This document shows positions 5,905 to 63,678 of a stretch of 64,000 nt of DNA, in pieces. How positions within the stretch are numbered: the stretch's first letter is position 1; each line of letters begins with the position of its first letter. The DNA comes from Acidobacteriaceae bacterium (GTDB taxonomy: Bacteria > Acidobacteriota > Terriglobia > Bryobacterales > Bryobacteraceae). The notes under the pieces were generated by a model. That model made no database searches. It saw only the letters and a program-made list of their open reading frames with translations, and was not told the DNA's origin. The DNA is taken from positions 1-64,000 of the forward strand of contig JAFAYL010000044.1 of the NCBI GenBank assembly GCA_019240405.1. Direction: 5' to 3'. The position numbers and the translations under genes are program-made.

Positions 5905-6008
5905 ATGAAACCACGCATCGAAAAGGAATCTGGCACGTCAAACGTTATGAGAATGCGGCCGCGCTTCGTACAGGAATCGGTCGCGCAGTAAGAAAGGATT
6001 GGGAGGAA

Positions 6009-7565
6009 ATGTCACAAGTTATTCAATTTCGCCGCACAACAGCGATTCTGACGCTGATCGCGGCTTCTATCGGCGGAGGTCTCGTCGCGGCACTCGCCGT
6101 AGCAACACACAGTAAAGCGCCCGTATATGTAACGGCGCGAGCGGCGGATACGAAGGATGCGAATACCCAGCGAGTGACGCAGCTCTCAAATTCTTTTGCC
6201 GACATTATCGAGAAGGCGTCGCCTGCGGTCGTAAAGATTAGCATGACGCGAATCATCAAGGCGTCCGATCAGCAGCAGAATAATCCGTTCATGTCAGATC
6301 CATTCTTCCGGCAATTCTTTGGCGGACCGATGGCGCGTCCGCGCGATCAGCGCGAGCAGGGCTTGGGATCGGGCGTGATTGTCAGCGGTTCGGGTTACAT
6401 CCTGACCAACAACCACGTGGTCGAAAAAGCAAACAGTCTCAAGGTCAGCTTGTCGGATGGACGCGATTTCACGGGCAAGGTAGTAGGAGCGGATCCGCAA
6501 ACCGACGTCGCGGTCGTGAAGATCAATGCTTCGAATCTGCCCACTCTTCAGTTCGCGAATTCCGATGGCGCGAGAGTGGGTGATCTGTGCTTCGCGATCG
6601 GGAATCCTTTCGGCCAAGATCACACCGTAACCATGGGAATCGTGAGCGCGAAAGGACGCAAGCTCGAAGGCGGCACATACATTCAAAATTTCATCCAAAC
6701 CGATGCGGCAATTAACCCGGGCAACTCGGGTGGCGCGCTCATCAATGCTCGCGGTGAATTGATCGGCATGAACACGATGATTCTCACCGGCAACTCCGGG
6801 TTTGGCGGAGAAGGCGGCAACATCGGCATCGGATTCGCCGTTCCATCGAACATGGCGAAGCAGGTCATGGATCAGATCATGAAGACCGGCAAAGTGTCGC
6901 GTGGCTATATGGGCGTGAGCTTGCAGCCTGTCACTCCAGAGCTGGCGCAGCAATTTGGTCTGAAGACGGGCGAGCGAGGCGCAATCGTAGCCGACGTAAC
7001 CCCTGGCGCTCCCGGCAGCAAAGCAGGGTTGAAGTCCGGCGATGTGATCACGGCGATTGATGGAAAGAAGGTCGAAGGCTCGGACGACCTCACAATGGAG
7101 GTCATCTCGCACAGCCCGGGAAACACGGTTACTCTGGATGTGATCCGAAACGGCGAGCCAATGAAGGTCAGCGTAACGCTTGGGCAGCGCCCGGGCAGCG
7201 TTGATCTCAGAGACTGGAACAAGCGCAATGGTCAAGGTGAGAACAACAACGAAGAGGAAGACAACGGGAATACCGGAAACGCCTCTGCGCGCGGAATCAG
7301 CGTCGAAACGCTGACCGGCGACCTCGCGCAACAATTAAACGTACCGGCGAACACGCGAGGAGTGGTAGTCGACGAAGTGGACGAGAGTAGCCCCGCTGCG
7401 GACGCGGGAATCGGTCGGGGCATTGTGATCACCGCCGTCGATCGCAAGCCAGTGAGCAACGCGCAAGACTTCAAACGCTTGATGTCTCAGGCGCAAAACA
7501 AACCAGTCCTACTGACAGTCAATCAGGGCGGTCAGACGGGATTCGTGGTTGTTCAACCGAAATAG
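6009..7565 (+). CDS. degP: Do-like periplasmic serine protease (HtrA/DegP family)
   Basis: 518-residue trypsin-like protease with an N-terminal signal/anchor (about residues 12-32), so it acts in the periplasm. The catalytic triad is visible: H136 in TNNHVV, D166 in TDVAVV and S240 in NPGNSGGAL. Two PDZ domains follow (about 300-385 and 425-515). The linker between them is rich in Asn/Glu (about 405-425). Its role is chaperone and protease for misfolded envelope proteins. A GGAGG ribosome site lies just before the ATG. A strong hairpin terminator follows the stop, so the transcript ends before lon. Which of DegP, DegQ or MucD it equals cannot be decided here. Confidence 0.95.
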   Translation: MSQVIQFRRTTAILTLIAASIGGGLVAALAVATHSKAPVYVTARAADTKDANTQRVTQLSNSFADIIEKASPAVVKISMTRIIKASDQQQNNPFMSDPFFRQFFGGPMARPRDQREQGLGSGVIVSGSGYILTNNHVVEKANSLKVSLSDGRDFTGKVVGADPQTDVAVVKINASNLPTLQFANSDGARVGDLCFAIGNPFGQDHTVTMGIVSAKGRKLEGGTYIQNFIQTDAAINPGNSGGALINARGELIGMNTMILTGNSGFGGEGGNIGIGFAVPSNMAKQVMDQIMKTGKVSRGYMGVSLQPVTPELAQQFGLKTGERGAIVADVTPGAPGSKAGLKSGDVITAIDGKKVEGSDDLTMEVISHSPGNTVTLDVIRNGEPMKVSVTLGQRPGSVDLRDWNKRNGQGENNNEEEDNGNTGNASARGISVETLTGDLAQQLNVPANTRGVVVDEVDESSPAADAGIGRGIVITAVDRKPVSNAQDFKRLMSQAQNKPVLLTVNQGGQTGFVVVQPK

Positions 7566-7585
7566 ATCAAGATAGCCAGTCAGTT

Positions 7586-7625
7586 AAGGCCCGAGGCGGA
7601 TTTTGATCTTCCTCGGGCCTTTTTG
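7586..7625 (+). terminator. Rho-independent terminator after htrA
   Basis: A perfect 11-bp inverted repeat (arms 7586-7596 and 7611-7621, AAGGCCCGAGG paired with CCTCGGGCCTT) encloses a 14-base loop and runs into a T-rich stretch TTTTTG. It lies 21 bases after the htrA stop codon. This is directly visible and is the clearest terminator in the window; the A-rich left arm also allows weak function from the other strand. Confidence 0.9.
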
Positions 7626-7675
7626 TCGCTGTAGAAATTTGAGTGGTTTGACCGCAAGGAATCGCAGCAGGAGCT

Positions 7676-10063
7676 TTGCGCATCGAAAGAATAGGTGAAA
7701 CAGTGAACACGATAGGAGAGCATGAATTTCAGGTTCTACCGGCATTGCCGCTGAAAAACACGATCCTGTTTCCGGGACTATTACTGCCTCTTTCAGTCGG
7801 CCGCGAGAGCTCGATCACAGCAGTACAGGCGAGCTTGAAAACAGAAGGAAAGGAAGTCATCCTGATCGCCCAGCGCGATTCTCAGATTGAATCTCCTCAA
7901 CAAGACGATCTCTACACGATCGGCACCAGGGCTGTCATTCGCAAATCGTCGCGGCAGGGCGATGGAATGATGGAGATACTTGTTTTCGGTATTGAACGCG
8001 TTGTACTGGTCAAGCTCGAGCAAACAGAACCGTACTTAAACGCTAAATTTCGAGTGCTTCCTTTACCCGACGACGGTGGTTCCGAAGTTGAAGCGCTTTC
8101 GCGAGCGTTGTTTGAACTATCTGCGAAAGCAATTGCTTTGGCACAGCCCCAATCTGCGGCCGAACTAACGCGAATGCTCGCCGGCAGCGATGACCCGTTG
8201 CGATTGGCCTATCTTCTGGCCAGCATTTTCAGCCTGGATCTGGCCCGCGAACAGAAACTGCTCGAAGCCGAAACACGCGCGGATGCCCTGCGCCTGATGC
8301 ATTCTTATCTCACGCATGAGCTCCAAGTTTTGGAATTGCGGCAGAAGATCGCATCAACGGCGCGTGACGAGATGTCAAAGGAGCAGCGCGAGTATCTACT
8401 GCGCCAGCAACTCCGCGCCATTCAGCAGGAATTGGGTGAGAAGGACGGCGAGAAGGCTGATCTGGATCTTTTGCGCGAGCGCTTCGAGAAGGCGAATCTC
8501 CCCGAAGAACCAAAAAAAGAATTCGAGCGCGAAATGGCGCGCTTGGAGCGGCTTCCTTCGGGAGCACCTGATTATCACGTAACGCGCAGCTATCTCGAGT
8601 TTGTTCTCGATCTACCGTGGAATGCGCAAACGGAAGACAATCTCGAAATCTCTCATGCGCGGCAGGTGCTCGACGAAGATCACTTCGGATTGAAGGAAGT
8701 AAAGGAACGCATTCTCGAGCACTTGAGCGTTTTGAAGCGCAATCCTGAAGCGAAGGCGCCCATTTTGTGCTTCGTCGGACCTCCAGGCGTCGGCAAGACT
8801 TCTCTCGGCCAATCGATTGCCCGTGCGCTGGGTCGAAAATTTGAACGATTCAGTCTCGGCGGCATGCACGATGAGGCCGAATTGCGAGGCCACCGGCGCA
8901 CCTACATCGGAGCAATGGCGGGCCGGTTACTGCAGGCCATGCGGCGCGCTGGAGCGAAGAATCCAGTCTTGCTACTGGATGAAGTCGACAAACTGGGACG
9001 CGATTTTCGTGGCGACCCGGCTGCGGCGCTGCTCGAAGTATTGGATCCGGAACAAAACAAGAGTTTCCGCGATAACTATCTCGATCTGGCCTTCGATCTG
9101 TCGAAAGTCCTGTTCATCACGACGGCAAACTCGCTCGATACGATCCCGCAACCGCTGCTCGACCGGATGGAGATGTTACGGCTCTCCGGCTACAGCACGG
9201 AAGAGAAACTGCAAATCGCGCGGCGTTATCTGATTCCGCGGCAATTGAAAATGGCCGGATTGACCGAAGAAGAACTGGAGTTCACCGATGCCGGCCTGAA
9301 TGCGATTATCTCCGGATACACGCGCGAAGCTGGTCTGCGCCGTCTTGAGCGATCCATTGCGCGAGTTGCGCGCAAAATTACGCTACGTTTCGCCGAAGGT
9401 CAAGCCGAGAAGGTTGCTATCACACCCGAAATTTTGGGTGATTTGCTAGGCCCCGAGATGTTCCTGCCCGAGGAGATGCGCAAGGCAATGCCTGCAGGTG
9501 TCGCAACGGGGCTCGCGTGGACTGAGACCGGCGGCGATGTTTTATACATCGAGAGCAGCTTGCTGCCAAGCGGAAAAGACCTGACAATTACAGGGCAGCT
9601 CGGCGAGGTCATGCAGGAGTCCGCAAAGATCGCGAAGAGTTACATCTGGGCGCACGCGGAAGATCTCGGCATCGATCCCGAGGTAATTAAGAATAACGGT
9701 GTTCACGTTCACGTTCCCGCGGGAGCGATTCCGAAAGACGGTCCTTCAGCCGGTATCACGATGACGACCGCGATGACTTCGCTTTTCACCGGTCTGCCGG
9801 CGCGCAGCGATACTGCCATGACAGGCGAAGTGACTTTGGCTGGCCTGGTGTTACCGATCGGCGGCGTCAAAGAAAAAGTTCTGGCGGCAAGACGCGCCGG
9901 TATCACCCGCGTGATCCTGCCGAAAGGAAACAAAAAGGATTTGCGCGAGTTGCCCGACCATGTCCGCCAGGAGATGCAGTTTCACTTTGTAGACCGGGTC
10001 GAAGAAGTGCTTTCGCTCGTGATCCCGAATGTAAAATTGAGGCCGCTAGCTCTCGCGAGCTAA
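7676..10063 (+). CDS. lon: ATP-dependent protease Lon
   Basis: 795-residue Lon protease. The N-terminal LON substrate-recognition domain (about 15-210) begins with LPALPLKNTILFPG. A coiled helical region follows, then the AAA+ module with Walker A GPPGVGKTS near 368 and Walker B LLLDEVDKL. The C-terminal protease domain has the catalytic dyad S691 (PKDGPSAG) and K732 (GGVKEKVLAARRAG). The TTG start at 7676 is preceded by a good GGAG site; an in-frame GTG at 7703 is the alternative, nine codons later. It degrades misfolded and regulatory cytosolic proteins. It stands after clpB and htrA but behind a terminator, so it likely has its own promoter. Confidence 0.96.
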   Translation: MRIERIGETVNTIGEHEFQVLPALPLKNTILFPGLLLPLSVGRESSITAVQASLKTEGKEVILIAQRDSQIESPQQDDLYTIGTRAVIRKSSRQGDGMMEILVFGIERVVLVKLEQTEPYLNAKFRVLPLPDDGGSEVEALSRALFELSAKAIALAQPQSAAELTRMLAGSDDPLRLAYLLASIFSLDLAREQKLLEAETRADALRLMHSYLTHELQVLELRQKIASTARDEMSKEQREYLLRQQLRAIQQELGEKDGEKADLDLLRERFEKANLPEEPKKEFEREMARLERLPSGAPDYHVTRSYLEFVLDLPWNAQTEDNLEISHARQVLDEDHFGLKEVKERILEHLSVLKRNPEAKAPILCFVGPPGVGKTSLGQSIARALGRKFERFSLGGMHDEAELRGHRRTYIGAMAGRLLQAMRRAGAKNPVLLLDEVDKLGRDFRGDPAAALLEVLDPEQNKSFRDNYLDLAFDLSKVLFITTANSLDTIPQPLLDRMEMLRLSGYSTEEKLQIARRYLIPRQLKMAGLTEEELEFTDAGLNAIISGYTREAGLRRLERSIARVARKITLRFAEGQAEKVAITPEILGDLLGPEMFLPEEMRKAMPAGVATGLAWTETGGDVLYIESSLLPSGKDLTITGQLGEVMQESAKIAKSYIWAHAEDLGIDPEVIKNNGVHVHVPAGAIPKDGPSAGITMTTAMTSLFTGLPARSDTAMTGEVTLAGLVLPIGGVKEKVLAARRAGITRVILPKGNKKDLRELPDHVRQEMQFHFVDRVEEVLSLVIPNVKLRPLALAS

Positions 10064-49559: not shown

Positions 49560-51170
49560 TTAGTTGTCGCGCCAAAGAATAGCCGAGATGGTGCCCTCGT
49601 CCTGAAACACACGAATCAGATCGTTCAGATTGTGGAACGGCACATTATTCACGACCACTTCATAGACGAGCTCACTTCCGCTCTTGGCATGAATGTAGCC
49701 TGCAAAGGCCTGACCTCTGATCAGTGAACCTTCAAGGAAGGTTCCGGGTTTCGCGTGCACCCGTCCCTTAGCGGGCGCGAGGCTTGGGTTGCACTCGAAT
49801 TCATTGACGCTTGCAAGCGACCCATCGACCGCAAGAATAGGAAAGCTGGCAAGATACTGGGCAAAGCCGGACTTAGTGTACATATCGGCTAAAAAGCGCG
49901 TGACTGCCCGCGGTGTTGCAGTAGATTCTCCGCCACCGCTGCCATCGATGAAAAAGTATTCGCTGGGTTCGATCCCATACTTCGTTTGTAAGTTTTTCCT
50001 TTCCGCCGCGAGCGCCGATTCCATGTTGTCGACACCCTGAGTCAGGCCGTACAGAACGATGCTCGTGTCCGCGCCGATGTTGTAACTGACCTTGTTGATC
50101 AGCTTGATGTCTTCAGAATACGGAAGGCCGCGAAGCTCCGCGACACGCATATCGCGTTCGTAACTATCCTTCGGAGGGAGCAGCTCACTGGGATTACGTT
50201 CAACTGCCGGCGCTTTCACAATCACACCGGCGGCGCGGAGTTTTTCGATAAGCACAGTGCGGACGTAACTCGACGGGTCGACGATTCGGAATGTCCGGAT
50301 GAGAGGATAACGGCCAGTGAACGGTGGTACGAAACCGACAGGAAGATTGCCGCTGATCGTAACAGTGCAATCGGGTTGTCCTATGCATCGAGGAAGCACC
50401 GGCTCAATGTTGACGCTTGTACCGGGGGGCGTCATGAGGATATCGTTGTCGATCGCCAGCGCGGCAGATCGGGGACGGTGCTCGATATGGGCTAATTCGC
50501 CAAGGTTTGCGGGATCGATAATAACGTCCACTACGTCGTCGTTGACGAAGATGGGTTTAACATCAAACTCACCGCGAAAGTTAAAGGGCTTGAAGAGCCG
50601 GTCATCGATCACAATCTCGCCGCGGATCTCCTTGATCCCGCTGTCTGCGATTTGATTGGCGAGAGCAGCATATCCGCGCAAGGGATCGGGTTTAGTAAGT
50701 ACAGCGTTGCCGAGCGAATTCGCTTCGTTGTGATCGAAATCGCTGTACGCGATGGTGCCATTCTGCTTTGTGCGTCCACCCATGGTGAGGTCGCCCGAGG
50801 CGACTAGGATGAGATCGCCGTCCAAGGTGCCCTTATCGCTGACCGTGCCTTGGCGGTACGCGGGAGTGTTAAACGTGTGGGCGGGGCCGATCTGATTCAA
50901 TAGCTCACCTGTTGAGAAGACCTTACGGACGGATCCAAGGAGGAATTTGTGGCCGGGATCGAGATCGATCACCAGCTTGCCGGTTTTGAGATCAATGACA
51001 CGAAGGCCCCAAGTGGCCCCTTTATAGCGCGGCGCATCTAAGATGGCCTTGATTTCAGGAGGAACACTAGCCGCGTTGTTGGCATCCTGCGCGCTGACCA
51101 GGCGCATACCTGGGCACAAGGCCAGCAGAGAAATGACGAGCGGGAATAGACGATGTCGAATGTTACTCAT
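49560..51170 (-). CDS. dacB: D-alanyl-D-alanine carboxypeptidase/endopeptidase, PBP4 family
   Basis: 536 residues with a signal peptide (ends VSAQ). Class C low-molecular-weight penicillin-binding proteins trim peptidoglycan peptides in the periplasm. The SxxK motif is S80-V-R-K83, SxN is S362-Y-N364. The third motif, usually KTG, reads K474-P-G476 (HAKPGTFLEGSL), a substitution at a position that helps hold substrate and beta-lactams. A long insert between the first two motifs (about 100-350) matches the PBP4 pattern. Next to the M23-peptidase gene cluster but on the other strand. Confidence 0.9.
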   Translation of the reverse strand: MSNIRHRLFPLVISLLALCPGMRLVSAQDANNAASVPPEIKAILDAPRYKGATWGLRVIDLKTGKLVIDLDPGHKFLLGSVRKVFSTGELLNQIGPAHTFNTPAYRQGTVSDKGTLDGDLILVASGDLTMGGRTKQNGTIAYSDFDHNEANSLGNAVLTKPDPLRGYAALANQIADSGIKEIRGEIVIDDRLFKPFNFRGEFDVKPIFVNDDVVDVIIDPANLGELAHIEHRPRSAALAIDNDILMTPPGTSVNIEPVLPRCIGQPDCTVTISGNLPVGFVPPFTGRYPLIRTFRIVDPSSYVRTVLIEKLRAAGVIVKAPAVERNPSELLPPKDSYERDMRVAELRGLPYSEDIKLINKVSYNIGADTSIVLYGLTQGVDNMESALAAERKNLQTKYGIEPSEYFFIDGSGGGESTATPRAVTRFLADMYTKSGFAQYLASFPILAVDGSLASVNEFECNPSLAPAKGRVHAKPGTFLEGSLIRGQAFAGYIHAKSGSELVYEVVVNNVPFHNLNDLIRVFQDEGTISAILWRDN

Positions 51171-51274: not shown

Positions 51275-51822
51275 GTGTTGTCTCCGAATCGCGCCGTTGC
51301 GCTATTGATCGCGCTCTTTAGTGTATGCTCTTTGGTTCGAGCTCAAACAGTAACTGCTTCAGAGCCGGATTACAGCAAGGTGAATGATTTCCTTGACGGC
51401 CGCCGGACTCTTCTCGCGATCAACGACCTCATCATTGGCGGATTGGTTTTGCCGACAAGTGATGGCACGACAAGAGCATTTATACGCTACCTGGGTATGA
51501 TCCGAAAAACGCAGGTCCGGAGATCTCGACGCGCGTGTTCAACTCGAGTTACGACACGTTGGTATACACCAATGGTGACACGATCTTCATGCAGGATCTT
51601 GTTTCCAAAAAAGTGGCATCGTTCCGCTGGGCTGGGCAGGACTTAAGATCTGCGCTTATCGCTGCCGGCGATTTCCGGGGTGATGGCTTCAATGAGGTTG
51701 TAATTGCCACAAACGGCGGATCGATGATCGTCGCCGTTGCGGTCGAGTTCGACAGCCGCGGACGCTGCTTGCGCGGCGTATGCAGCGCCTTCGGCGTTGG
51801 CCGCTATTGTCTTCAGCTCTAA
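51275..51822 (+). pseudogene. Broken mosaic copy of the large FG-GAP-like secreted protein
   Basis: Starts GTG 51275 after GGAGGTG with a signal peptide (LIALFSVCSLVRAQ) and SEPDYSKVNDFLDGRRTLLAIND. A deletion of about 10 bases around 51468-51480, relative to the intact copies, shifts the frame. Homology continues in another frame from about 51480 to 51730 (FNSSYDTLVYTNGD to EVVIATNGGS), then stops and unrelated sequence takes over. Leader sequence is nearly identical to the downstream copy (57268) and the propeller part to the upstream copy (53724), so it is a mosaic. About 150 codons of about 1175 remain. Confidence 0.9.
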
Positions 51823-51880: not shown

Positions 51881-52201
51881 GCTTCGCATCCATACTCTTC
51901 GCAGCCACACGCGGCCGAGCTAGGTTTCAGTCGCGGAGGAGAACATCGCATGCTGGAGGCTATGCGCATCGCTCAGCAGCGCTACTTCGACAGCGGCCAG
52001 TCCTCCGGCTTCGAGCTAGCTCGCACCTGCGCCCTGCTGGGAAGAAGCCGGGACGCAGTTACGGCTCTCAAAGGAGCCCTCCCCGCGCACGACTACGCCG
52101 TCTTGGAGACAGCCACCGATCCCAACTTCAACGAGCTGTCTGGCGACCCCGCCTTCCAGGATCTCGTTCGTCAGGTCACCGAGCGCGCTTACCGCCCCTG
52201 A
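51881..52201 (+). pseudogene. C-terminal fragment of a TPR-type protein
   Basis: The frame is open from after a stop at 51878. MLEAMRIAQQRYFDSGQSSGFELARTCALLGRSRDAVTALKGA followed by LETATDPNFNELSGDPAFQDLVRQV is the typical final repeat and tail of TPR regions in Acidobacteriota winged-helix or kinase proteins, where it reads DPxFDPLRSDPRFQxL. The rest of such a protein is missing. The first possible start is ATG 51950, but this is probably a remnant and not a gene. The flanks 51823-51880 and 52202-52380 show nothing else recognisable. Confidence 0.6.
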
Positions 52202-52380
52202 GCCCCAACGGAGAATCTTGGTCGGTGGATTGGCCCCGAAATCGGCGGATTACGACAATCGGACGTTTGGGGACGCGAATCCAACTCATGCTGAAGGGCT
52301 CCAAATCGCTCGTGCAGGTACGCTTGATTACTGATTTCGTTTTGGATATCATCTACTGATTTCCCCAGGAGGGAGTTCCC

Positions 52381-53688
52381 ATGCATCACCTCAAGGCCAT
52401 TCTCTTGAGTGTTGCCTTGCTGGCCGTTCGTGCGCCTTCACCTGCACTGCTATTCGCAGCGGGATGTCATGCGGCCCAAGACAAGACTCAGATTCATGTT
52501 CCAATTCCCCAGCCGATGAGCTCGCCGTTCGTGATCCATCTGCTCAGTCCCATCCATCCCGTAGCCGGAATCGACGGCATGATCCATCTCTCTTATGCGG
52601 TGCAAGTGACAAATACTACGTTCAATAGCGGAAAAGAGTTCAAGGCAATTCCTGTAGATCCGTTAAATAATTTCGAAGAGACCGGTCACAACTTCGTCGA
52701 GACTGACGACGGCAAGGACATCACCGGGCTGATCAGACGCTTCAGCGTAAACCCAAACGCAGGCGCTGGCGGGGCACTCGCGCCTGAGGATGTTGCCGCT
52801 GAAACCGACACGCCACAGTACCTCAATGCATTAGGTCCCGGACAGTCGGGTGTCATGTTTTTTGACGTGACCTATCCAGATCCCACTCAGGTGCCTTTGT
52901 TCTTCTCACATCATCTTTTTGTCGAGGTCGCGGATCTTGGTCAAAATACCCACAATGCATTCACAATACCTGTCCCGGTGAGCTGCGAAAAAGCTGTAAC
53001 ACTCCGGCCACCGCTCGCTGGAGCCGGATGGTTTGACGCGAATGGATGCTGTGCCATCGTGAACGGGCATCGCTCCGCTGTGATCCACTTGAATGGCGAT
53101 CTCTGGGTACCCGAGCAGTTTGCGATTGACTGGCTACGCCTGGATGCTGAAGGTAGATGCTGCAACGGAGACCCGGCCGACCTGAAGTCCTGGCAGTATT
53201 ACGGCGTGCCGATCTACGCGGCAGCTTCAGGAACTGTTGCTAAGGTGCTCGCGCGTGACTTGCCCAACCAAAAGCCCTTGCACCCTGAACCTCCCACGCT
53301 CGACACCCTTGCGGGTAACGGAATTATCGAGAACATCGGAGACGGCCGGTTCATCATGTATGCGCACCTTGCACCGGGGAGCATTCCGGCGAACATCATT
53401 GAGGGCACGCATGTCGAGGCTGGCCAAGTGATAGGAAAATTGGGGAACTCCGGCAATAGCGCCGCGCCGCATCTGCACTTTCAGGTGATGGATCGTCCGT
53501 CGGCGCTCGTCTCTCATGGCCTCCCATTTGTTTTCGATCATCTCAAAGTCGAAGGACATGTGATTGGGAAAGAGGGCCCGGTTGTGGATGATTTCCTGGC
53601 TGGAAAAGCAGTGCGGCTCAATACCAGTAATGCAGGGCCGCAGAGCGAAAAAATGCCTCTTTCCAGTAACGTTTACAGATTTCAGTAG
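52381..53688 (+). CDS. Secreted M23-like metallopeptidase-domain protein
   Basis: 435 residues. A signal peptide (about 1-32) is followed by a beta-rich domain (about 45-205) with VQVTNTTF and then a peptidase domain (about 210-400). M23 features: QFAIDWLRLD (the Asp ligand), VPIYAAASGTVAKV, IIENIGDGRFIMYAHLAPGSI, GKLGNSGNSAAPHLHFQV (H364 and H366). M23 enzymes cut peptidoglycan cross-links, but some related domains have other roles. AGGAGGGA precedes ATG. It lies 35 bases before the first large paralogue and may share a transcript with both paralogues. Confidence 0.85.
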   Translation: MHHLKAILLSVALLAVRAPSPALLFAAGCHAAQDKTQIHVPIPQPMSSPFVIHLLSPIHPVAGIDGMIHLSYAVQVTNTTFNSGKEFKAIPVDPLNNFEETGHNFVETDDGKDITGLIRRFSVNPNAGAGGALAPEDVAAETDTPQYLNALGPGQSGVMFFDVTYPDPTQVPLFFSHHLFVEVADLGQNTHNAFTIPVPVSCEKAVTLRPPLAGAGWFDANGCCAIVNGHRSAVIHLNGDLWVPEQFAIDWLRLDAEGRCCNGDPADLKSWQYYGVPIYAAASGTVAKVLARDLPNQKPLHPEPPTLDTLAGNGIIENIGDGRFIMYAHLAPGSIPANIIEGTHVEAGQVIGKLGNSGNSAAPHLHFQVMDRPSALVSHGLPFVFDHLKVEGHVIGKEGPVVDDFLAGKAVRLNTSNAGPQSEKMPLSSNVYRFQ

Positions 53689-53723
53689 AGTTGGATCTCG
53701 CCATTAAACGACGGAGGCTGAGA

Positions 53724-56700
53724 ATGCTAACGCGAGCGATTTTGTTTTGGAGTACGTTCCTAATTACGTCAGCTCAAATACTGAGCGCTTCAGAGCCGGA
53801 TTACAGCAAGGTGAATGATTTCCTTGACGGCCGCCGAACTCTTCTCGCGATCAACGACATTATTATCGGCGGGTTAGTGCTGCCGACGAGCGATGGAACC
53901 AAGATCGATGACAAGAGCATTTATACGCTACCTGGGTATGATCCGAAAAACGCAGGTCCGGAGATCTCGACGCGCGTGTTCAACTCGAGTTACGACACGT
54001 TGGTATACACCAATGGCGACACGATCTTCATGCAGGATCTTGTTTCCAAAAAGGTGGCGTCGTTCCGCTGGGCTGGGCAGGACTTAAGATCTGCGCTTAT
54101 CGCTGCCGGCGATTTCCGGGGTGACGGCTTCAATGAGGTTGTAATTGCCACAAACGGCGGATCCAGGATCGTCGCAGCGCAAGATCCTAACGATTTTTCG
54201 AAAGGCATCTTTGCCGGAGCTGTCTCGCGTCCCTCAGAGGCTTTCGGGGATGCTAAACCGGCAGCCCTAGCTGTCGCCGACATCCGAGGTCGTGGGCGGC
54301 GCTACGTAGTGACAATCTACAATTCGGAGACCATTCCGCGAGGGCGAAGGCAGGGCGTTCTGGTCTATCACGAGGTCGATCCAAAACTCCTGCAAATTAC
54401 CTCAGCCGGCGGGTTCAAAAATCTCACGGAGCCCAGTACCAATACAGACTTTGCCTTACACGCGAGCCTTGCCGCGGGACGATTTGGGACGACTTTGCGC
54501 GACCAGCTGGCAGTTGCCTATTACACAACAAGGACGAACGGTAGCCACGTCGGCGAGCTCTCGATTAAGTCTTTCGATCTTGAACAGTACATTACTCATA
54601 CCGTCGTGCCGTCCCTCCCCGCGGTGAACAGCGAAGTCGTCTTGAAAACGGGTCGGTTCGATCCCAACTCGCCGTATGAACAGGTAGCGATGAAATGGAA
54701 CTCCGGGCGTGCTGTTTTCCTCGGTATCGTCAGCTTCGATAAGATCCTGAACATCCGATTACCGAACTTCACTATCGCCCCTCCCGCTTGCAGCACTCCC
54801 GGCCTGGCGGTTGGAAATTTCAGCCGGACAGAGCCAATTCCTCAGGATCCCTCGAAAACACAGCTCAGCTTAAAGCTTCAATTGGCGATTGAAACATATA
54901 ACTGTTTCGGGAGGGACATGGGACTGAATATCTTCAACGTCAATCCGCCGACCAGTTCGTCAGGGGATTTCGTTGTCGAGCAAACGCAGGCATTCACCAA
55001 GACTACCAATGACCCAATCTGGCTGATGTACCTAAACACCCCGATTGTCGCGGGCGATGTACAGGGCCGATCTTACATACTTGGCGATCCAAGCAAAGTC
55101 GTTATCGAAGATACGGATCAGCCATCGGTCATCGCGGCTATGCCCCCGATGCATGTCGATTTTATTCCTCCCGTGGGAAGCAATGAACCTGAGGAGCTGA
55201 ATTTGAGTGCAATCCCGGATGGCTTTCGCACGCTCTACGAAACAACATCGTCAGAGAAGTTTGAATCCTCGACCGTAAATACAACGAGTTTGAGTTTTGG
55301 CGCGAGACAAAGCGTTGCGTCTTCAGTGGAGGTTGGCGACGTTGAAGCTGGATTGGGCGCAAAGGTTTCAGCGGCGGTGCGCGCAGCGCAGGATTTTAAG
55401 GGTATTGCCGAAAGAGAACATGGCAGCTACACAACCAACGACTTCAGTGTGCACCTCAAGACGGGGTTCTCCGACCATGTTTGGTTCACCGCGACGCGAT
55501 TCAACATTTTTGTGTATCCCGTCATTGGAAGAACGGTTTGTCCAGCCGCTAAGCCAAACTGCAAAGACTATGAAAAAGTCCCACTCACCATTCAATACTC
55601 GGCGCCCGACCTTAGCTCTTATGAGCATGTCGACGGCAAGCTGCTGCCGTGGTATCAGCCGGCTTGGGAGCCTGGAAACGTATTTTCCTATCCGGCAACC
55701 TACGAACAGTTACAGCAAGCGGTTCCCGCAATTGAGAAGCTTTCCGCAGATCACACGTGGCGGACGGATGGAAGCACGCTGACCGAAGAAACGAAATGGA
55801 CCACGGAGTCAAGAGATGGATCGAGCGCAAGCTTCGATCAGAACTATTCTTTCGAATACGACCTGTCGGTTGTGGGCGCATGTTGCGGGCGGTTGGTCAC
55901 CGGCACGGTTTCGGCTGAACTAAACCTCAGCGGAAGCTTCGGCTTCACGAACCTGAACAAGGCCGTTGCGACGGTTGGAAAATCCACGGGCATCGGGGTG
56001 GAAAAACCCGGAACGTTCCTGACGCCCACCAATTACAATTACCCGGTTACGCCCTACATCTTTGGGCAGCCGAACCCGCCCAATCTCGTTGACAAGGTCC
56101 CGCTGGAAGGCGATGTAGAGACCGCTGGGATTCTGCGGACTGCATTCGTCGCCGACCCGGCGCGGAATAACTCCGGCAGTTGGTGGAAGACCGCTTATTC
56201 GAGTGCGCCCGACGTGGCTTTGAATCACCCCTCACGTTGGGAGATCGACTCGCTCGGTTTAGAGAATCCAATCCCCCCTAACTGCAGGCAGGTGGGATCG
56301 AGAGAATCGACGATGGACTGCGCTGTTTTCGGACCGAGTTTTCCGAACAAACCTTGGGACAGCCTGTTTCACATCATGCGCGGATTCTTCATTTCGAGTG
56401 CGCTGAATCCCGGCAAAGGACCGCAGCTTACGACCGCCAAAGCCGGTGACAAGCTTACGCTCCAGGCTCGCGTTTATAACTACAGCTTTACGCCAATGAA
56501 TCCGGATAACGAAGTGCACGTTCGCTTCTACGTCCAGCCGGTCGATAACCTAAAGCAGCTCATCGGGAACAGCCGTTTGATCAATGACCAAGATGTCGTG
56601 CTTTCGCCGATTCCACCGTTGAGCGATGAGGCTGGCGCACCGGTCAATTGGGTGCTGGCTAACACTACTTTCGATACGACGCCGTATGCCAATCAGTACC

Positions 56701-57248
56701 TAACCTTCTGGGTCGTGGTTTGGATGCAATCGCCTGGGGGAAAACTTGTTAAAGAAATTCGGGGTCATGGGCTCCAGCAGATTCCAGGCACGCTGAATTC
56801 AATCGCTGATGTGAAACCGGAGAAATACAGCAACAACGTCGGCTTCTACAATTCCGAATTTTATGTGTTCCCCGCAAGCTCGGTTGAAGCATCGCCTTCG
56901 CCGAGCGCTGAACCGGCTACTGTCGCCATGGATGCGCTCCAGCTTTCCGATTGCCATGCCGGTCGCGGGCAGGTGATCGATGTGTCCACGCTGATCAGCG
57001 CCGAGGGCAACAGCGCTTCAGGAGTGACAGCAATTTTCTACGACGGCGACCCGCAGGCTGGCGGTACGGCGTTCGGTGTCGAGCGCGCCCCTTACGTGGC
57101 GGAGAACGGTTTGTACAAGATCGAGGCGCCGTATTACGCAAGTACGTGTGGAACACACGAAATATTTGTCGTGGTACACGAGGGATCGCCGAACGAGGTT
57201 TCGCGAAAATCCCCGCTTACTGTCGATTGCACAGCATCTAAACGTTAG
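53724..57248 (+). CDS. Large secreted FG-GAP-like protein, paralogue A
   Basis: 1174 residues from ATG 53724 (GGAGG upstream; a TTG at 53691 is the longer option). Signal peptide about 1-24. Residues 25-490: beta-propeller-like with FG-GAP-type loops AAGDFRGDGFNEVVIA, VADIRGRGRRYVV, GRFDPNSPYEQVAMK, AGDVQGRSYILGDPSK. Residues 500-700: an unknown region with alternating small residues (ARQSVASSVEVGDVEAGLGAK). Residues 720-860: repeated Ser/Thr-rich strands with GACCGRLVTG. C-terminus: two Ig-like modules ending KSPLTVDC. Probable extracellular or surface binding protein. Nearly identical to paralogue B from residue about 303 onwards. No known function. Confidence 0.85.
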   Translation: MLTRAILFWSTFLITSAQILSASEPDYSKVNDFLDGRRTLLAINDIIIGGLVLPTSDGTKIDDKSIYTLPGYDPKNAGPEISTRVFNSSYDTLVYTNGDTIFMQDLVSKKVASFRWAGQDLRSALIAAGDFRGDGFNEVVIATNGGSRIVAAQDPNDFSKGIFAGAVSRPSEAFGDAKPAALAVADIRGRGRRYVVTIYNSETIPRGRRQGVLVYHEVDPKLLQITSAGGFKNLTEPSTNTDFALHASLAAGRFGTTLRDQLAVAYYTTRTNGSHVGELSIKSFDLEQYITHTVVPSLPAVNSEVVLKTGRFDPNSPYEQVAMKWNSGRAVFLGIVSFDKILNIRLPNFTIAPPACSTPGLAVGNFSRTEPIPQDPSKTQLSLKLQLAIETYNCFGRDMGLNIFNVNPPTSSSGDFVVEQTQAFTKTTNDPIWLMYLNTPIVAGDVQGRSYILGDPSKVVIEDTDQPSVIAAMPPMHVDFIPPVGSNEPEELNLSAIPDGFRTLYETTSSEKFESSTVNTTSLSFGARQSVASSVEVGDVEAGLGAKVSAAVRAAQDFKGIAEREHGSYTTNDFSVHLKTGFSDHVWFTATRFNIFVYPVIGRTVCPAAKPNCKDYEKVPLTIQYSAPDLSSYEHVDGKLLPWYQPAWEPGNVFSYPATYEQLQQAVPAIEKLSADHTWRTDGSTLTEETKWTTESRDGSSASFDQNYSFEYDLSVVGACCGRLVTGTVSAELNLSGSFGFTNLNKAVATVGKSTGIGVEKPGTFLTPTNYNYPVTPYIFGQPNPPNLVDKVPLEGDVETAGILRTAFVADPARNNSGSWWKTAYSSAPDVALNHPSRWEIDSLGLENPIPPNCRQVGSRESTMDCAVFGPSFPNKPWDSLFHIMRGFFISSALNPGKGPQLTTAKAGDKLTLQARVYNYSFTPMNPDNEVHVRFYVQPVDNLKQLIGNSRLINDQDVVLSPIPPLSDEAGAPVNWVLANTTFDTTPYANQYLTFWVVVWMQSPGGKLVKEIRGHGLQQIPGTLNSIADVKPEKYSNNVGFYNSEFYVFPASSVEASPSPSAEPATVAMDALQLSDCHAGRGQVIDVSTLISAEGNSASGVTAIFYDGDPQAGGTAFGVERAPYVAENGLYKIEAPYYASTCGTHEIFVVVHEGSPNEVSRKSPLTVDCTASKR
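54631..57240 (+). repeat. Long direct duplication, left copy (shared part of paralogue A)
   Basis: About 2610 bases, aligned with 58172-60784 of paralogue B. Long stretches are identical at the DNA level, for instance around 56232-56450 and 56660-56740. The lengths differ by one codon. The pair looks like a recent tandem duplication or gene conversion rather than old divergence. Confidence 0.85.
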
Positions 57249-57267
57249 ATCCCAGGAAGGTGCAAAA

Positions 57268-60200
57268 ATGTTGTCCTCGAACGCCACTAGCGCATTTTTG
57301 ATCGCGCTCTTTAGTGTATGCTCTTTGGTTCGAGCTCAAACAGTAACTGCTTCAGAGCCGGATTACAGCAAGGTGAATGATTTCCTTGACGGTCGCCGGA
57401 CTCTTCTCGCGATCAACGACCTCGAAATTGGCGGATTGGTGCTGCCGACGAGCGATGGAACCAAGATCGATGACAAGAGCATTTATACGCTACCTGGGTA
57501 TGATCCGAAACTCAAAAACCCGGCCGAGATATTCGCCCGCATGTTCGATTCGCCGATAGATACGTTAGTCTACGCGCAAGGCTCCACCATCTACGCCGTC
57601 GATCCAGTATCCAAACAGTCGATATCGCTTGGCTTGGACGTGCCTGCGGACGAGCTCAGAAAGGCACGCATCGCGACGGGCGATTTCAGGGGAGATGGAT
57701 TCAATGAAATCGTGCTCGTATTGAGATCCGGAGTGCGGATCATTAGCGCGGTCAACCCTTTCGATTTCTCAAGGGGCTTGCAGTCGGGGCCGGTTTGGAA
57801 ACGCAAATACGGAACTAAGATCGACTCCTTCGCACTCGCAGTAGGTGATTTCCACGGAGACGGACGGCGCGAAGTTGTAATCGGCTATCAGGATATAGCC
57901 TCTAATACTACATTGATCCGCGTCCAGTCTCTTAGGGTTGATCAAAAAACATTCAGGCTTGATGCTGCGGACATAAACGACAGCTTCTCTCCCATCTCTG
58001 CTGCCGGCGGTAGTGCCGCTGCAGGAAGGTTCGGCAGCACTCTCCATGACCAGTTGATACTCGCCTACTACAGTGTGCAGGCAAAACAACTACAAATTAG
58101 GTCTTTCGATTTCGATAGCTCTCTGAGACCTGTATTAAAACATCATCTCGTGACCGATCTCCCCGCCGGCGGCGAAGTCGTTTTGAAAACGGGCCGGTTC
58201 GATCCCAACTCGCCGTACGATCAGGTCGCGATGAAGTACAACCTGGGTCGGGATAATGTTCGACTCGGGATTGTGACATTCGATAACACACTAAAGTTCC
58301 GATTACCGAACTTCACTGTCGCCCCTGTCGCTTGTAGTACGCCCGGCTTGGCCGTTGGGAACTTCAGCCGGACAGAGCCAATTCCGCAAGACCCTTCGAA
58401 AATGCAGATCAGTTTCAAGCTTCAATTGGCGATCGAAACTGATAACTGCGGCGGAAGAGATATGGGGCTCAATATCTTTAACGTGAATCCTCCCAGCAGT
58501 CCATCAGGGGAATTCACTGTCGAGCGAACTCAGGCATACACCAACACGACCAATGACCCAACCTGGCTGATGTATCTCAATGCTCCAATCATCGCGGGGG
58601 ACGTACAGGGCCGATCTTTTATACTTGGCGATCCAAGCAAGGTGGTTATGGAGGATACGGATCAACCGTCGGTCATCGCGGCCATGCCCCCAATGCACGT
58701 GGATTTTATTCCTCCCGTGGGCAGCAATCAGCCCGAAGAGCTGAACCTGAGTGCGATTTCGGATGGCTTTCGCACGCTCTACGAAACGACATCATCGGAG
58801 AAGTTTGAATCGTCGACTGTAGATACAACCAGTTGGAGTTTTGGCGCGAGACAAAGCGTTGGATCTTCAGTGGAGGTTGGGGACGTTGAAGCGGGATTGG
58901 GCGGAAAAGTTTCAGCCGCCACGCGCGCAGCGCAGGATCTAAAGGGTATTGCCGAAAAAGAACACGGTAGCTACACAGCGAATGATTTCAGCGTTCATTT
59001 GAAGACAGGCTTTTCGGACCACGTCTGGTTTACCTCGACGCGATTCAATATCTATGTTTATCCGGTCATCGGGAGAAAGGTCTGTCCAGCAGCCAAGCCG
59101 AATTGCGGCAACAATGAAAAGGTTCCGCTAACCATTCAATACTCAGCGCCCGACTTTAGCTCGTACGAGCATGTCGACGGCAAGCTGATCCCGTGGTATC
59201 AACCGGCTTGGGAACCCGGAAACGTATTGTCGTATCCGGCAAATTACGCTCAATTGCAGCAGGCGATTCCTGCAATTGATAAGCTTTCCGCGGATCACAC
59301 ATGGCGGACCGATGGGAGCACGCTCACCGAAGAAACCAAATGGACCACGCAAGCGACGGATGGCTCAAGCGCAAGCTTCGATCAGAACTATTCTTTCGAA
59401 TACGACCTGTCCGTTGTGGGCGCATGTTGCGGACGGCTGGTCACCGGCACCGTTTCGGCTGAACTAAACCTGAGCGGGAGCTTTGGCTTCACAAACCTGA
59501 ATAAGGCCGTTGCTACCGTCGGGAAATCCACCGGCATTGGCGTGGAAAAACCTGGAACATTTCTGACTCCAACCAATTACAACTACCCTGTCACGCCCTA
59601 CATCTTCGGGCAGCCGAACCCGCCCAATCTCGTCGACAAGGTTCCACTTGACGGTGATGTGGAGACCGCTGGGATTCTGCGGACTGCGTTCGTCGCCGAC
59701 CCGGCGCGGAACAACGCCGGCGGTTGGTGGAGAGAAGCCTACTCCAGTGCGCCTGATGTGGCTTTGAATCATCCCTCACGTTGGGAGATCGAGTCGCTCG
59801 GCCTGGAGAATCCAATCCCCCCTAACTGCAGGCAGGTGGGATCGAGAGAATCGACGATGGACTGCGCTGTTCTCGGACCTAGTTTTCCGAACAAACCGTG
59901 GAACAGCTTATTTCACATCATGCGCGGATTCTTCATTTCCAGCGCGCTCAATCCCGGCAAAGGACCGCAGCTCACGACGGCGAAGGCAGGCGACAAGCTT
60001 ACGCTCCAAGCTCGCGTTTATAACTACAGCTTTGGGCAGATGCGTTCCGATACTGAAGTGCACGTTCGTTTCTACGTCCAGCCGGTCGATAACCTGAAAG
60101 TACCTGTTGGGAACAGCCGCCTCATTAACGATCAGGATGTGGTGCTCTCGCCGATCCCTCCGTTCAGTGACGATGATGGAGCTCCGGTCAACTGGGTGCT

Positions 60201-60798
60201 GGCGAGTACTACTTTCGATACGACGCCGTATGCCAATCAGTACCTAACCTTCTGGGTCGTGGTTTGGATGCAATCGCCTGGGGGACAACTGGTGAAAGAG
60301 ATTGTGGGTCACGGTCTCGAACTGATTCCAGGCACGCTGAATTCCATCGCTGATGTGAAAACTGAAAAATACAGCAACAACGTGGGCTTCTACAATTCCG
60401 AATTTTATGTGTTCCCGCAGGATTCTGTCGAAGGGGAACCTTCACCGAGCGCTGAACCGGCCACTGTCGCGATGGATGCGCTCCAGCTTTCCGACTGCCA
60501 TGCCGCTCGCGGGCAAGTGATCGACGCGTCCACTTTGATCAGCGCCGAGAATAATAGCGCCTCAGGCGTGACAGCAATTTTCTACGACGGCGACCCGCAC
60601 GCTGGCGGTACGGCGTTCGGTGTCGAACGCGCCCCTTACGTGGCGGAGAACGGTTTGTACAAGGTAGAGGCGCCGTATTACGCAAGCGCGTGCGGAACAC
60701 ACGAAATATTTGTCGTGGTACACGAGGGATCACCGAACGAGGTTTCGCGAAAATCCGCGCTTACTGTCGATTGCACAGCATCTAAAACGTTAAACTAG
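57268..60798 (+). CDS. Large secreted FG-GAP-like protein, paralogue B
   Basis: 1176 residues from ATG 57268 (AGGAAGGTG before it); the frame open from 57076 lies in the 3' end of paralogue A and is not coding. Signal peptide about 1-24 (LIALFSVCSLVRAQ), same as in the broken copy. It shares the N-terminal SEPDYSKVNDFLDGRRTL and the whole C-terminal two-thirds with paralogue A, but residues about 82-301 differ greatly. Extra FG-GAP-like motifs: ATGDFRGDGFNEIVLV and AVGDFHGDGRREVVIG. The gap after paralogue A is 19 bases, so the two are likely cotranscribed. Confidence 0.87.
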   Translation: MLSSNATSAFLIALFSVCSLVRAQTVTASEPDYSKVNDFLDGRRTLLAINDLEIGGLVLPTSDGTKIDDKSIYTLPGYDPKLKNPAEIFARMFDSPIDTLVYAQGSTIYAVDPVSKQSISLGLDVPADELRKARIATGDFRGDGFNEIVLVLRSGVRIISAVNPFDFSRGLQSGPVWKRKYGTKIDSFALAVGDFHGDGRREVVIGYQDIASNTTLIRVQSLRVDQKTFRLDAADINDSFSPISAAGGSAAAGRFGSTLHDQLILAYYSVQAKQLQIRSFDFDSSLRPVLKHHLVTDLPAGGEVVLKTGRFDPNSPYDQVAMKYNLGRDNVRLGIVTFDNTLKFRLPNFTVAPVACSTPGLAVGNFSRTEPIPQDPSKMQISFKLQLAIETDNCGGRDMGLNIFNVNPPSSPSGEFTVERTQAYTNTTNDPTWLMYLNAPIIAGDVQGRSFILGDPSKVVMEDTDQPSVIAAMPPMHVDFIPPVGSNQPEELNLSAISDGFRTLYETTSSEKFESSTVDTTSWSFGARQSVGSSVEVGDVEAGLGGKVSAATRAAQDLKGIAEKEHGSYTANDFSVHLKTGFSDHVWFTSTRFNIYVYPVIGRKVCPAAKPNCGNNEKVPLTIQYSAPDFSSYEHVDGKLIPWYQPAWEPGNVLSYPANYAQLQQAIPAIDKLSADHTWRTDGSTLTEETKWTTQATDGSSASFDQNYSFEYDLSVVGACCGRLVTGTVSAELNLSGSFGFTNLNKAVATVGKSTGIGVEKPGTFLTPTNYNYPVTPYIFGQPNPPNLVDKVPLDGDVETAGILRTAFVADPARNNAGGWWREAYSSAPDVALNHPSRWEIESLGLENPIPPNCRQVGSRESTMDCAVLGPSFPNKPWNSLFHIMRGFFISSALNPGKGPQLTTAKAGDKLTLQARVYNYSFGQMRSDTEVHVRFYVQPVDNLKVPVGNSRLINDQDVVLSPIPPFSDDDGAPVNWVLASTTFDTTPYANQYLTFWVVVWMQSPGGQLVKEIVGHGLELIPGTLNSIADVKTEKYSNNVGFYNSEFYVFPQDSVEGEPSPSAEPATVAMDALQLSDCHAARGQVIDASTLISAENNSASGVTAIFYDGDPHAGGTAFGVERAPYVAENGLYKVEAPYYASACGTHEIFVVVHEGSPNEVSRKSALTVDCTASKTLN
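58172..60784 (+). repeat. Long direct duplication, right copy (shared part of paralogue B)
   Basis: About 2613 bases matching 54631-57240. A second, shorter shared block of 162 bases lies at 53787-53948 and 57349-57510 and recurs in the broken copy near 51349. Between the shared blocks lie the divergent parts 53949-54630 (A) and 57511-58171 (B). Confidence 0.85.
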
Positions 60799-60844: not shown

Positions 60845-62173
60845 GTGAGCAAACCCTGGGAGCGCGTTCGTTGTATCGCGCTGCTGATTCTACTGGCGCT
60901 AAGCACCGCATGTTCGGGCTCGCGGCCGAGAGCCGACAATCCGGCGACAGTAACCGCTTTGATGTGGATGCCGGAATCGAACCGGCTCGATCAAGACATC
61001 GCGCGCGAGTTCACCCAAAAAACCGGCATTTCCGTTCGACTCATTCCCGGTTCTGAATCTGCGCCGCGCCGGCTGGCCCAAGAAATGGCGCTCCTCGAGC
61101 AGGGTTCGAGCGCCGTTGACGTATTTCAAGTGGATACCATTTGGCCCGGAGCCGTTGCAGATTACATGCTTGATTTGAAAGATGTGCTTCGAGACGAGCT
61201 GACCGGCGAATTGCCTCAAGTCGTCGAGAACGCGACTGTAAGCGGCCGTCTCATTGCGGCTCCGTTCTATGTGGATTACAGCATGCTGTATTACCGGACA
61301 GACCTCCTCCAGAAGTACGGGTTTTCTCACCCGCCGCGCACATGGGATGAATTGGAGCTCCAGTCCTCGCGTATCCAAAAAGGCGAGCGCGCGGGCGGCA
61401 GGCAAGATTTTTGGGGCTACATCTGGCAAGGCGCACAATACGAAGGGCTGACTTGCAATGCACTCGAATGGCAATCGTCTCAAGGAGGCAGGAATTTGCT
61501 ATCGCCCGACCATAGTGTCAACGTTGCCAATCCGCGCGCCGTCCGCGCTTTCTCGCGAGCGGCACGATGGGTTGGAACCATTTCACCGCCCGGGGTTGTT
61601 GCATATATCGAAGAGGACTCGCGGAACATTTGGCAGAGCGGAAGAGCCGCATTTCTTCGAAATTGGAGTTATGTTTATCCCCTAGCAAAAAGATCTCGTG
61701 AAGTCGGCAATCGCTTTTCTGTAGCGCCGATGCCGGTTGGGGTTGACCGCCATTCAAGCGTTCTGGGCGGATGGTATTTGGGTGTTTCCAAAAACGCTCC
61801 GCACCGGCGCGAAGCGATTGCGTTCATCAGATATATGACCAGCCGAGAAGCGCAAAAACGCAGAGCCGTCGAGGGCGGATTCTTACCAACCATTTCCTCC
61901 CTATACCAGGATTCGGACGTACTTCGGGCGAATCCATTTCTCGCCGGCATATCGGATGTGCCGAATCGGGTGATAAGGCGGCCAGCTTCGCTTGTCGGCG
62001 CAAAATACGCGCGTGTCTCTGAAGCATACGCGCACGGTGTCCACACGATTCTTACAGGCCAGATCAGTGCGTCGACAGGAGCCGGAAATATTCAATCTGA
62101 GCTTGAGCGCTTAACTGGGTTCAGCAGGCCGGTTGAGGCTTCGGCGAGACCCGTGAAGCAGGAACACCCGTGA
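60845..62173 (+). CDS. Family 1 (sugar-type) ABC solute-binding lipoprotein
   Basis: 442 residues. Lipobox LALSTAC with Cys23. The mature chain has the SBP family 1 pattern: VTALMWMPESNRLDQDIAREFTQKTGISV, QVDTIWPGAVADYMLDLKDVL, YYRTDLLQKYGFSHPPRTWDEL and FAVAPMPVG-like FSVAPMPVGVDRHSSVLGGWYLGVSKNAPHRREAIAFIRYMTS. It binds a sugar or oligosaccharide. No permease gene follows; instead its end overlaps a sensor kinase gene in GTGA. GTG start at 60845. Confidence 0.92.
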   Translation: MSKPWERVRCIALLILLALSTACSGSRPRADNPATVTALMWMPESNRLDQDIAREFTQKTGISVRLIPGSESAPRRLAQEMALLEQGSSAVDVFQVDTIWPGAVADYMLDLKDVLRDELTGELPQVVENATVSGRLIAAPFYVDYSMLYYRTDLLQKYGFSHPPRTWDELELQSSRIQKGERAGGRQDFWGYIWQGAQYEGLTCNALEWQSSQGGRNLLSPDHSVNVANPRAVRAFSRAARWVGTISPPGVVAYIEEDSRNIWQSGRAAFLRNWSYVYPLAKRSREVGNRFSVAPMPVGVDRHSSVLGGWYLGVSKNAPHRREAIAFIRYMTSREAQKRRAVEGGFLPTISSLYQDSDVLRANPFLAGISDVPNRVIRRPASLVGAKYARVSEAYAHGVHTILTGQISASTGAGNIQSELERLTGFSRPVEASARPVKQEHP

Positions 62174-63678
62174 CCATTGGACGCCGGCTGACGCTCGCGT
62201 TCGGCAGTTTGGCGCTGGTGATTGCCGTAGGCGCAGCGGTCACCGGAGCGGAATTTGTCGCGAGCCTGCGCCAGGCCAGAACGTTGACTGCGGGAGCCGA
62301 CAGGGTCATGGCGCTATATCGGGTAGAACGAGATCTAGGCGACATCCGCCGCAAGCTGGATAACGTCACGAATACCCGGGACGCCGCCCTGTTCTCCTCC
62401 ACTGCTCACCTACTTCGACAGGAGCTGTTCGATGACATCGAGCAGGCACTCGCGTTTTTTCGCGAAACAGGAACTCCGGTGCCCGGTACCCTAAGCGCTC
62501 TTCGCGACACCATCAGCGACCAGCTTGAAGCAATGCAGCGCCTGGTTGATGTGAACGACTGGACGGCAATCACGCTACGGCTCGACGGCCAAGTCGAGGG
62601 AATCCTCAACAGTGTCAAAGCAATGGTCGAGCGTGTAAACGCCGATGTAAGTGATCAGCGAATCCGCGCTTCGCTCGAAATTGAAGCCGCTCAGCGGCGC
62701 GCGCAGGTCATATTGGGCTTCACTGCGCTCGCATCACTCGTGATCGCTGTCGCTTTAGGGCTCTATGTAACACGCAGCATCGTGGTTCCTCTTGCGGAAC
62801 TCGAAGCCGCGGCCCTTCAGTTCGCGAAAGGCGATTTCAATGTATCGCTCAATCTTCGCTCGAACGACGAGCTAGCCGAAGTGAGCCGGGCCTTCACGGT
62901 TGCCGGCCGGCAATTGCACGATTATTATTCAGCCCTGAAGCGCTCCAATGAAGCGCTAGAGCAATTTGCGTACGCTGCCAGCCACGATTTACAGGAACCA
63001 CTCCGCACTATTTCCTCCTTCTCAGAACTACTGAAACGAAAATACGGAACTAGCCTCACGTCCGAGGCCAAACAGTATCTGTCCTACCTTAGTGACGCTT
63101 CAACTCAGATGCAGAAACTCGTCGCCGGAATTCTGGAGTATTCGCGTCTGACCACCTTGACCGATCAGCAGGAAGAGTCCGTGGAAACGGAGGACATCGT
63201 AAGATCCGTTCTCAAATACTTGCACGCAGCGATCCAACAAACCCATGCGGTTATAACTCACGATCCTCTCCCGGCAGTGATGGGCAGCGGACCGCAATTA
63301 GTACGCCTGTTCCAGAACTTGATTGGAAATGCAATTAAGTATGGCCGGGATGACACTCCTCCGTGGGTCCAAATTTCAGCTCAAGAGGACGGCGAAATGT
63401 GGCGCTTCTGCATCCAAGACAACGGTATGGGTATCGACCCCAAATATCACGAACAGGTTTTTAAGATGTTCAAACAATTGGAGCGCGGCGGAAAAGGCGG
63501 TGTAGGTCTGGGACTTGCGATTTCGAAGCGCATCGTTGAAAGGCATGGAGGGAGGATTTGGCTCGTCTCAGCCGTGAACCAGGGATCTCGCTTTTATTTC
63601 ACGTTAAGACGCGCCACACCGCGAGGACAGCCGCAACACGCCGGTGCCGAACCGGATCACGCGATGCGGCATTCCTAG
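62170..63678 (+). CDS. Sensor histidine kinase, HAMP type
   Basis: 502 residues. Two membrane segments (about 8-30 and 176-198) flank a periplasmic helical domain of about 145 residues, the four-helix type used by sensors. HAMP follows (about 199-255), then HisKA with YAASHDLQEPLRTISSF (H272), then HATPase with LIGNAIKYGRD, DNGMGIDPKY and GVGLGLAISKRIVERHGG. This kinase domain is of the phytochrome-like HK subgroup. Overlap with the upstream binding lipoprotein suggests the lipoprotein is its sensory input. A response regulator is not found within the window. Confidence 0.93.
   Translation: MTIGRRLTLAFGSLALVIAVGAAVTGAEFVASLRQARTLTAGADRVMALYRVERDLGDIRRKLDNVTNTRDAALFSSTAHLLRQELFDDIEQALAFFRETGTPVPGTLSALRDTISDQLEAMQRLVDVNDWTAITLRLDGQVEGILNSVKAMVERVNADVSDQRIRASLEIEAAQRRAQVILGFTALASLVIAVALGLYVTRSIVVPLAELEAAALQFAKGDFNVSLNLRSNDELAEVSRAFTVAGRQLHDYYSALKRSNEALEQFAYAASHDLQEPLRTISSFSELLKRKYGTSLTSEAKQYLSYLSDASTQMQKLVAGILEYSRLTTLTDQQEESVETEDIVRSVLKYLHAAIQQTHAVITHDPLPAVMGSGPQLVRLFQNLIGNAIKYGRDDTPPWVQISAQEDGEMWRFCIQDNGMGIDPKYHEQVFKMFKQLERGGKGGVGLGLAISKRIVERHGGRIWLVSAVNQGSRFYFTLRRATPRGQPQHAGAEPDHAMRHS

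Follow-up and report, generated by a model that had tools for sequence, protein, structure and literature searches.

Two tandem propeller proteins from an acidobacterial genome, candidate surface- or matrix-associated binding proteins of a rare family

The DNA considered here is a stretch of 64,000 nucleotides (the window; positions 1–64,000 of the forward strand of contig JAFAYL010000044.1, assembly GCA_019240405.1) from an Acidobacteriaceae bacterium, in which three adjacent genes on the + strand encode an M23-domain protein (52381–53688, 435 residues) and two large paralogous proteins, namely paralogue 1 (53724–57248, 1174 residues) and paralogue 2 (57268–60798, 1176 residues). Based on sequence comparisons and structure models, we lean modestly towards reading both paralogues as exported binding proteins that associate with the surface or a matrix, and the M23 gene is most likely a neighbour that stands outside any conserved system. 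An earlier reading of the window, hereafter the original prediction, had joined all three genes into one secreted system that included the peptidase. What the locus adds is a family with a lineage-restricted distribution, whose large exported-type proteins combine an integrin-like head with a sizeable conserved section missing from the libraries searched.

Both paralogues have the same architecture: a hydrophobic, signal-like N-terminus, a propeller, a conserved middle section, and an immunoglobulin (Ig)-like end. The M23 protein begins with a similar hydrophobic segment, and the signal peptides originally assigned to all three proteins are thus in agreement with their N-termini as judged by eye. 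Residues 52–450 of paralogue 2 (57421–58617, +) are modelled as a seven-bladed propeller of the FG-GAP/integrin-alpha type, with a structure match to the seven-bladed propeller fold that bears out the beta-propeller-like front proposed earlier. At the sequence level, each window copy has a single FG-GAP stretch that remains under the Pfam cut-off, which is exceeded in the relatives at loci L053, L096, L098, and L099. In predicted fold and in this FG-GAP-like stretch, the paralogues resemble the bacterial integrin-alpha-type (FG-GAP) seven-bladed propellers (PMC3192720); they differ from these in the single sub-cut-off stretch, in lacking a canonical calcium motif, and in carrying a middle section that matched no known family. 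The Ig-like end of paralogue 2 (59965–60777, +; residues ~900–1170), probably made of two domains, is a probable assignment with weaker support than the propeller, so that this element of the original prediction stands less firmly. Structure prediction of the full paralogue 2 gave a mean predicted local distance difference test (pLDDT) score of 44.9, with a usable propeller core and Ig part and a score of ~20 in the middle.

The two copies share 81% of their residues, with nonsynonymous (dN) and synonymous (dS) divergences of 0.136 and 0.708 over 1149 codons, which identifies them as genuine genes under selection rather than chance open reading frames. The propeller front diverges between the copies and the remainder is kept: the first 330 alignment columns, covering the signal peptide and the propeller front (281 codons), are 54% identical (dN 0.44, dS 1.15), and the later segments, from the rest of the propeller onward, are 81%, 90%, 94%, 89%, and 91% identical. 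The proteins would be exported by the Sec route and then cleaved by signal peptidase I before a conserved Gln; the propeller would present a variable ligand-binding face, its front changing fastest, and the middle and Ig parts would form an unvarying stalk or serve for attachment.

Several points weigh against this picture of attached binding proteins. The canonical DxDxDG-type calcium motif was found in neither window copy, and one or two such motifs occur in 12 of 14 propeller-bearing relatives (two propeller-less rows being left out). Library scans found no anchoring domain in either window paralogue, and PEP-CTERM had no match in them up to an expectation value (E) of 1, so that the paralogues may be freely secreted. 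Moreover, the propeller front is still under purifying selection, as its dN and dS values indicate, and for this reason its divergence does not prove that the ligands change. Near-invariant His and Asp motifs in the middle section could also be explained by an enzyme, and the tight spacing of the genes, together with the ribosome-site-like sequences before them, fits co-transcription with the M23 gene in the source genome.

Regarding the middle section (~430 residues; ~455–885 in paralogue 2, at 58630–59922, +, and 92% identical in paralogue 1, at 55071–56387, +), no Pfam match in a scan of 11 members, no NCBIfam match, and no convincing PDB sequence match were found, nor does any Pfam or NCBIfam model found cover the family over its length, so that its description as uncharacterised holds. 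A Pfam match in one of the 11 members (E 0.18) and two PDB chains (E 1 and 1.7) were discarded, and a weak match of L048 to the NCBIfam model of a serine-rich protein (E 8e-5; score 20 bits, cut-off 650) was taken as composition. Predicted alone, the section gave a model confidence of 31.3, and the fold search with this model returned weak, mostly barrel-type matches (best E 0.0037, template modelling scores of 0.09–0.10) that were discarded as meaningless; the structure prediction and fold search suggested by the original prediction were therefore informative for the propeller and Ig part and not for the middle.

This section could be a stalk, an enzyme, or a part that inserts into membranes. 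We consider it unlikely that the section is an enzyme domain, for example one acting on polysaccharides, with the propeller and Ig parts as its binding modules: the near-invariant motifs PPMHxD, YQPxxExGN, and D[VI]xxNHPxRW speak for it, but no enzyme was matched in Pfam, NCBIfam, or the PDB, and Pro, Gly, Trp, and Tyr, which fit a structural role equally well, account for many of the invariant positions. We give similarly little credence to a membrane-inserting beta-hairpin, which would make the proteins exported effectors that act against other cells and are targeted by their propeller. Its basis is a strand-like alternation of hydrophobicity in two segments of the section (z 4.6 and 6.6 against shuffles, in 16 and 17 sequences), where the failed model nonetheless drew five strands of 18–20 residues; however, an Ig-like segment alternates similarly (z 5.2), the kinship of the sequences inflates all these z values, the model confidence is 31 with meaningless fold matches, and Pfam gave no match to a pore-forming family among the 11 members. 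An internal repeat linking the two alternating segments was unsupported (hhalign probability 4.4% and 0.4%).

Returning to the paralogues as a tandem pair of putative binding proteins, sequence similarity indicates that they arose by tandem duplication, and a third copy, now broken and missed in the original prediction, accompanies them. This copy lies upstream (51275–51762, +), and its similarity to the paralogues stops at ~51735; the array thus once had at least three copies. Its GTG start and first ~65 codons (to ~51470) are nearest to paralogue 2; a 10-base net gap and a frame shift follow, and the sequence past them is nearest to paralogue 1. No further family copy was found in the source genome assembly, which is 95.8% complete. 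The broken copy and paralogue 1 flank the M23 gene.

The M23 protein carries its domain C-terminally (residues ~274–371; Pfam M23, E 2.9e-14) in an exported-type protein. It resembles M23 peptidases of the lysostaphin/LytM type in this Pfam match, in having lysostaphin among its PDB matches, and in the HLHF motif of its translation. The first metal-ligand His of M23 peptidases usually stands four residues before the conserved Asp. The window protein differs from the lysostaphin/LytM type at this point, since in all 12 aligned M23 sequences the residue at that place is not His and a conserved His lies further upstream. The alignment comprised the window sequence and 11 of 14 relatives picked, L036, L037, and L038 having been dropped by the filter; HLHF was a condition of selection, so that its conservation there is uninformative. 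A QRFAIDW-like motif is present in the M23 proteins of the window, of L054–L057, and of L028–L034. Of 100 related genomes, 74 (source included) contain matching relatives of the M23 protein, mostly through the catalytic domain only. The Cys-rich style said to be shared with the paralogues was not confirmed: the CC pairs named for it exist, but Cys makes up ~1% of each protein (6 of 435 residues in the M23 protein, 11 of 1174 and 12 of 1176 in the paralogues), so that none is Cys-rich.

The three-gene layout itself was confirmed, with gaps of 35 bases between the M23 gene and paralogue 1 and of 19 bases between the paralogues, and with sequences recognised by eye as Shine-Dalgarno-like upstream of all three starts. 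The M23 gene may therefore share a transcript with the paralogues in the source genome. A step further, the peptidase could open peptidoglycan so that both large proteins reach or attach to the surface or to another cell, as the original prediction suggested. This we regard as very unlikely, despite the common strand, the short gaps with a ribosome-site-like sequence before each gene and no terminator-like match within them, and the gene for an S13 D-Ala-D-Ala carboxypeptidase on the other side, which also occurs near a broken family gene in genome G015 (L052). With tblastn at E 1e-4, the window M23 protein found no relative at any of 18 other family loci (nine genomes), and paralogue 2 found no family gene at any of six loci with M23 relatives; many of these loci are contigs of 3–8 kb, so that their surroundings are only partly visible, and two loci, L045 and L053, probably represent a single gene. 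Absence of linkage in other genomes, which the original prediction had named as grounds for its own rejection, was thus seen at all the loci compared. The isolate KBS 96 (G024) has both kinds of gene, but far apart, at 2.35 Mb and 6.36 Mb of one 6.69-Mb scaffold, and no M23 relative lies in the 19.4 kb that hold its tandem pair of family genes. In the window, moreover, the broken copy and the M23 gene are ~600 bases apart, with no similarity to the paralogues in between, and a terminator-like match (57145–57159) falls within the 3′ end of paralogue 1. This last match and a promoter-like one 5′ of the M23 gene (52324–52352) carry no weight, because four promoter-like and five terminator-like matches were found as opposed to 5.9 and 12.1 in shuffled sequence.

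Across the genomes searched, the family appears rare and patchy. A seven-sequence profile matched 7 of the 237 genomes of the taxonomic family, source included; G094 and G095, two of nine matching genomes, had short FG-GAP-like stretches only and are left out of the family counts. The middle section matched 5 of 399 genomes in the class sample, namely the source genome, G024, and three from another family (G771, G783, and G869). In the phylum sample 5 of 396 genomes matched, four of them over short stretches only, which are not counted as family. The distant members in the class are single genes of 1361–1602 codons, and in an NCBIfam scan of two of these five, both from G869, each was found to end in NF058595, a putative C-terminal anchoring domain. 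Genes for RepA-type (RepA_C) plasmid replication proteins lie ~2.2 kb from family genes in L039 (12285–15809) and L043 (4912–9912), the latter with a ParA-like ATPase gene and a transposase near the family gene as well, and these plasmid-type surroundings fit the patchy distribution. Searches with tblastn gave no match of whole paralogue 2 to plasmid records and none of the middle section to phage records, and of 27 pattern matches in viral contigs none was confirmed. A search of the open PMC library found no paper on NF058595, and FG-GAP with Acidobacteriaceae matched only a lasso-peptide title; we make no claim that the family is absent from print.

Some relatives of the paralogues are preceded, in one open frame, by a DVUA0089 domain (NF038127) and a PEP-CTERM signal. 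This arrangement was found in five genomes, at L039 (first gene, 3400–7731), L043 (10077–14294), L044 (4992–9461), L042 (221–4192), and L053 (1986–3401), and in a broken copy, L086, in which the frame is interrupted; L053 and L045 (both G016) are probably the ends of one gene (94.7% identity over 302 bases). NF038127 matched the five unbroken genes at E 1e-31 to 1e-36 and L086 at 3e-11, and PEP-CTERM passed the Pfam cut-off in three of the five scanned (L039, L043, and L053) and remained under it in L044 and L042. These relatives resemble PEP-CTERM/exosortase substrates with DVUA0089 in carrying the module at their N-terminus, and the source genome has one EpsH-type exosortase over the cut-off and three PEP-CTERM matches over theirs (in a control, 6 of 14 genomes gave matches, all under the cut-off). 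They differ from such substrates in that their PEP-CTERM tail is internal in all six, with ~1150 residues after the second signal-like segment, and the window copies lack the module altogether. The order at all six junctions is PEP, a hydrophobic stretch, an Arg/Lys cluster (with His in L044), a second hydrophobic stretch, [AV]-x-A-Q, and the family protein; the A-Q aligns with the apparent signal peptidase site of the plain members, among them both window copies. In three stand-alone DVUA0089 proteins of these genomes, the chain stops shortly past the PEP motif, as judged by eye. In the tree, one branch splits fused from plain members with a support of just 77/80, and G016 and two other rows are ungrouped.

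A tentative explanation, which we hold to be possible and rather less probable than its denial, is that the fused relatives are two-in-one precursors, each a complete exosortase substrate with signal peptide, DVUA0089 domain, and PEP-CTERM tail, followed by a second exported protein that has a separate signal peptide. Cleavage by exosortase at the PEP motif and by signal peptidase I at [AV]-x-A-Q would then yield, from one translation product, equal amounts of a sorted PEP-CTERM protein and of a propeller protein of ~1150 residues, and the window paralogues would correspond to this second protein without the fusion. Two cuts, if they occur, would make these proteins an example of an internal PEP-CTERM in purposeful use; according to the original description of the PEP-CTERM signal, the few proteins with long tails may be non-functional (PMC1569441). 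An exosortase is present in 14 of 17 other genomes; none was found in G016, which has a fused gene and is 93% complete, and this weighs against two cuts. An internal translation start is also possible, because in-frame start codons occur at the junctions, with ATG at or just past the basic cluster in three of six (L039, L053, and L086) and GTG or TTG in the others; ribosome-site matches there are poor, with at most 4 of 6 bases matched in the unbroken five and 5 of 6 in L086. In the open PMC library, nothing was found that joins PEP-CTERM, Acidobacteria, and exosortase, or exosortase and polyprotein, from which we do not conclude that the fused form is absent from print.

DVUA0089 matched in 38 of 399 class genomes, at 50 listed places, four of which lie in open frames above 1000 codons; of these four, only that of KBS 96 has an internal PEP-CTERM. 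The long frames of G117, G118, and G114 were rejected as fused relatives, having Ig-like repeats, no PEP motif at the junction by eye, and no clear similarity to paralogue 2. DVUA0089-type starts on proteins of 1537–1696 residues with Ig-like repeats, seen by eye, occur at L110 (1344–6383), L111 (696–5786), and L112 (1180–5793), and L110 has a Solibacter C-terminal domain (TIGR03437).

Downstream of the paralogues, a solute-binding-protein-like gene (60845–62173) starts 46 bases past paralogue 2 and overlaps a histidine kinase gene (62170–63678). That the paralogues capture extracellular ligands as partners of these two gene products is highly improbable in our estimation: the genes share the strand and have SBP_bac_1 and HisKA/HATPase domains, and KBS 96 has a sensor kinase with propeller repeats of its own and a response regulator just upstream of its family genes, but the window solute-binding protein was matched at none of 24 loci and the window kinase at none of 18 family loci (E 1e-4). 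On the other side of the array, the S13 carboxypeptidase gene occupies 49560–51170 on the − strand, near the broken family gene, as its counterpart does at L052 of G015 (1–915 and 2245–2740). Between the broken copy and the M23 gene lies a short coding-like remnant (51940–52200), TPR-like by eye only.
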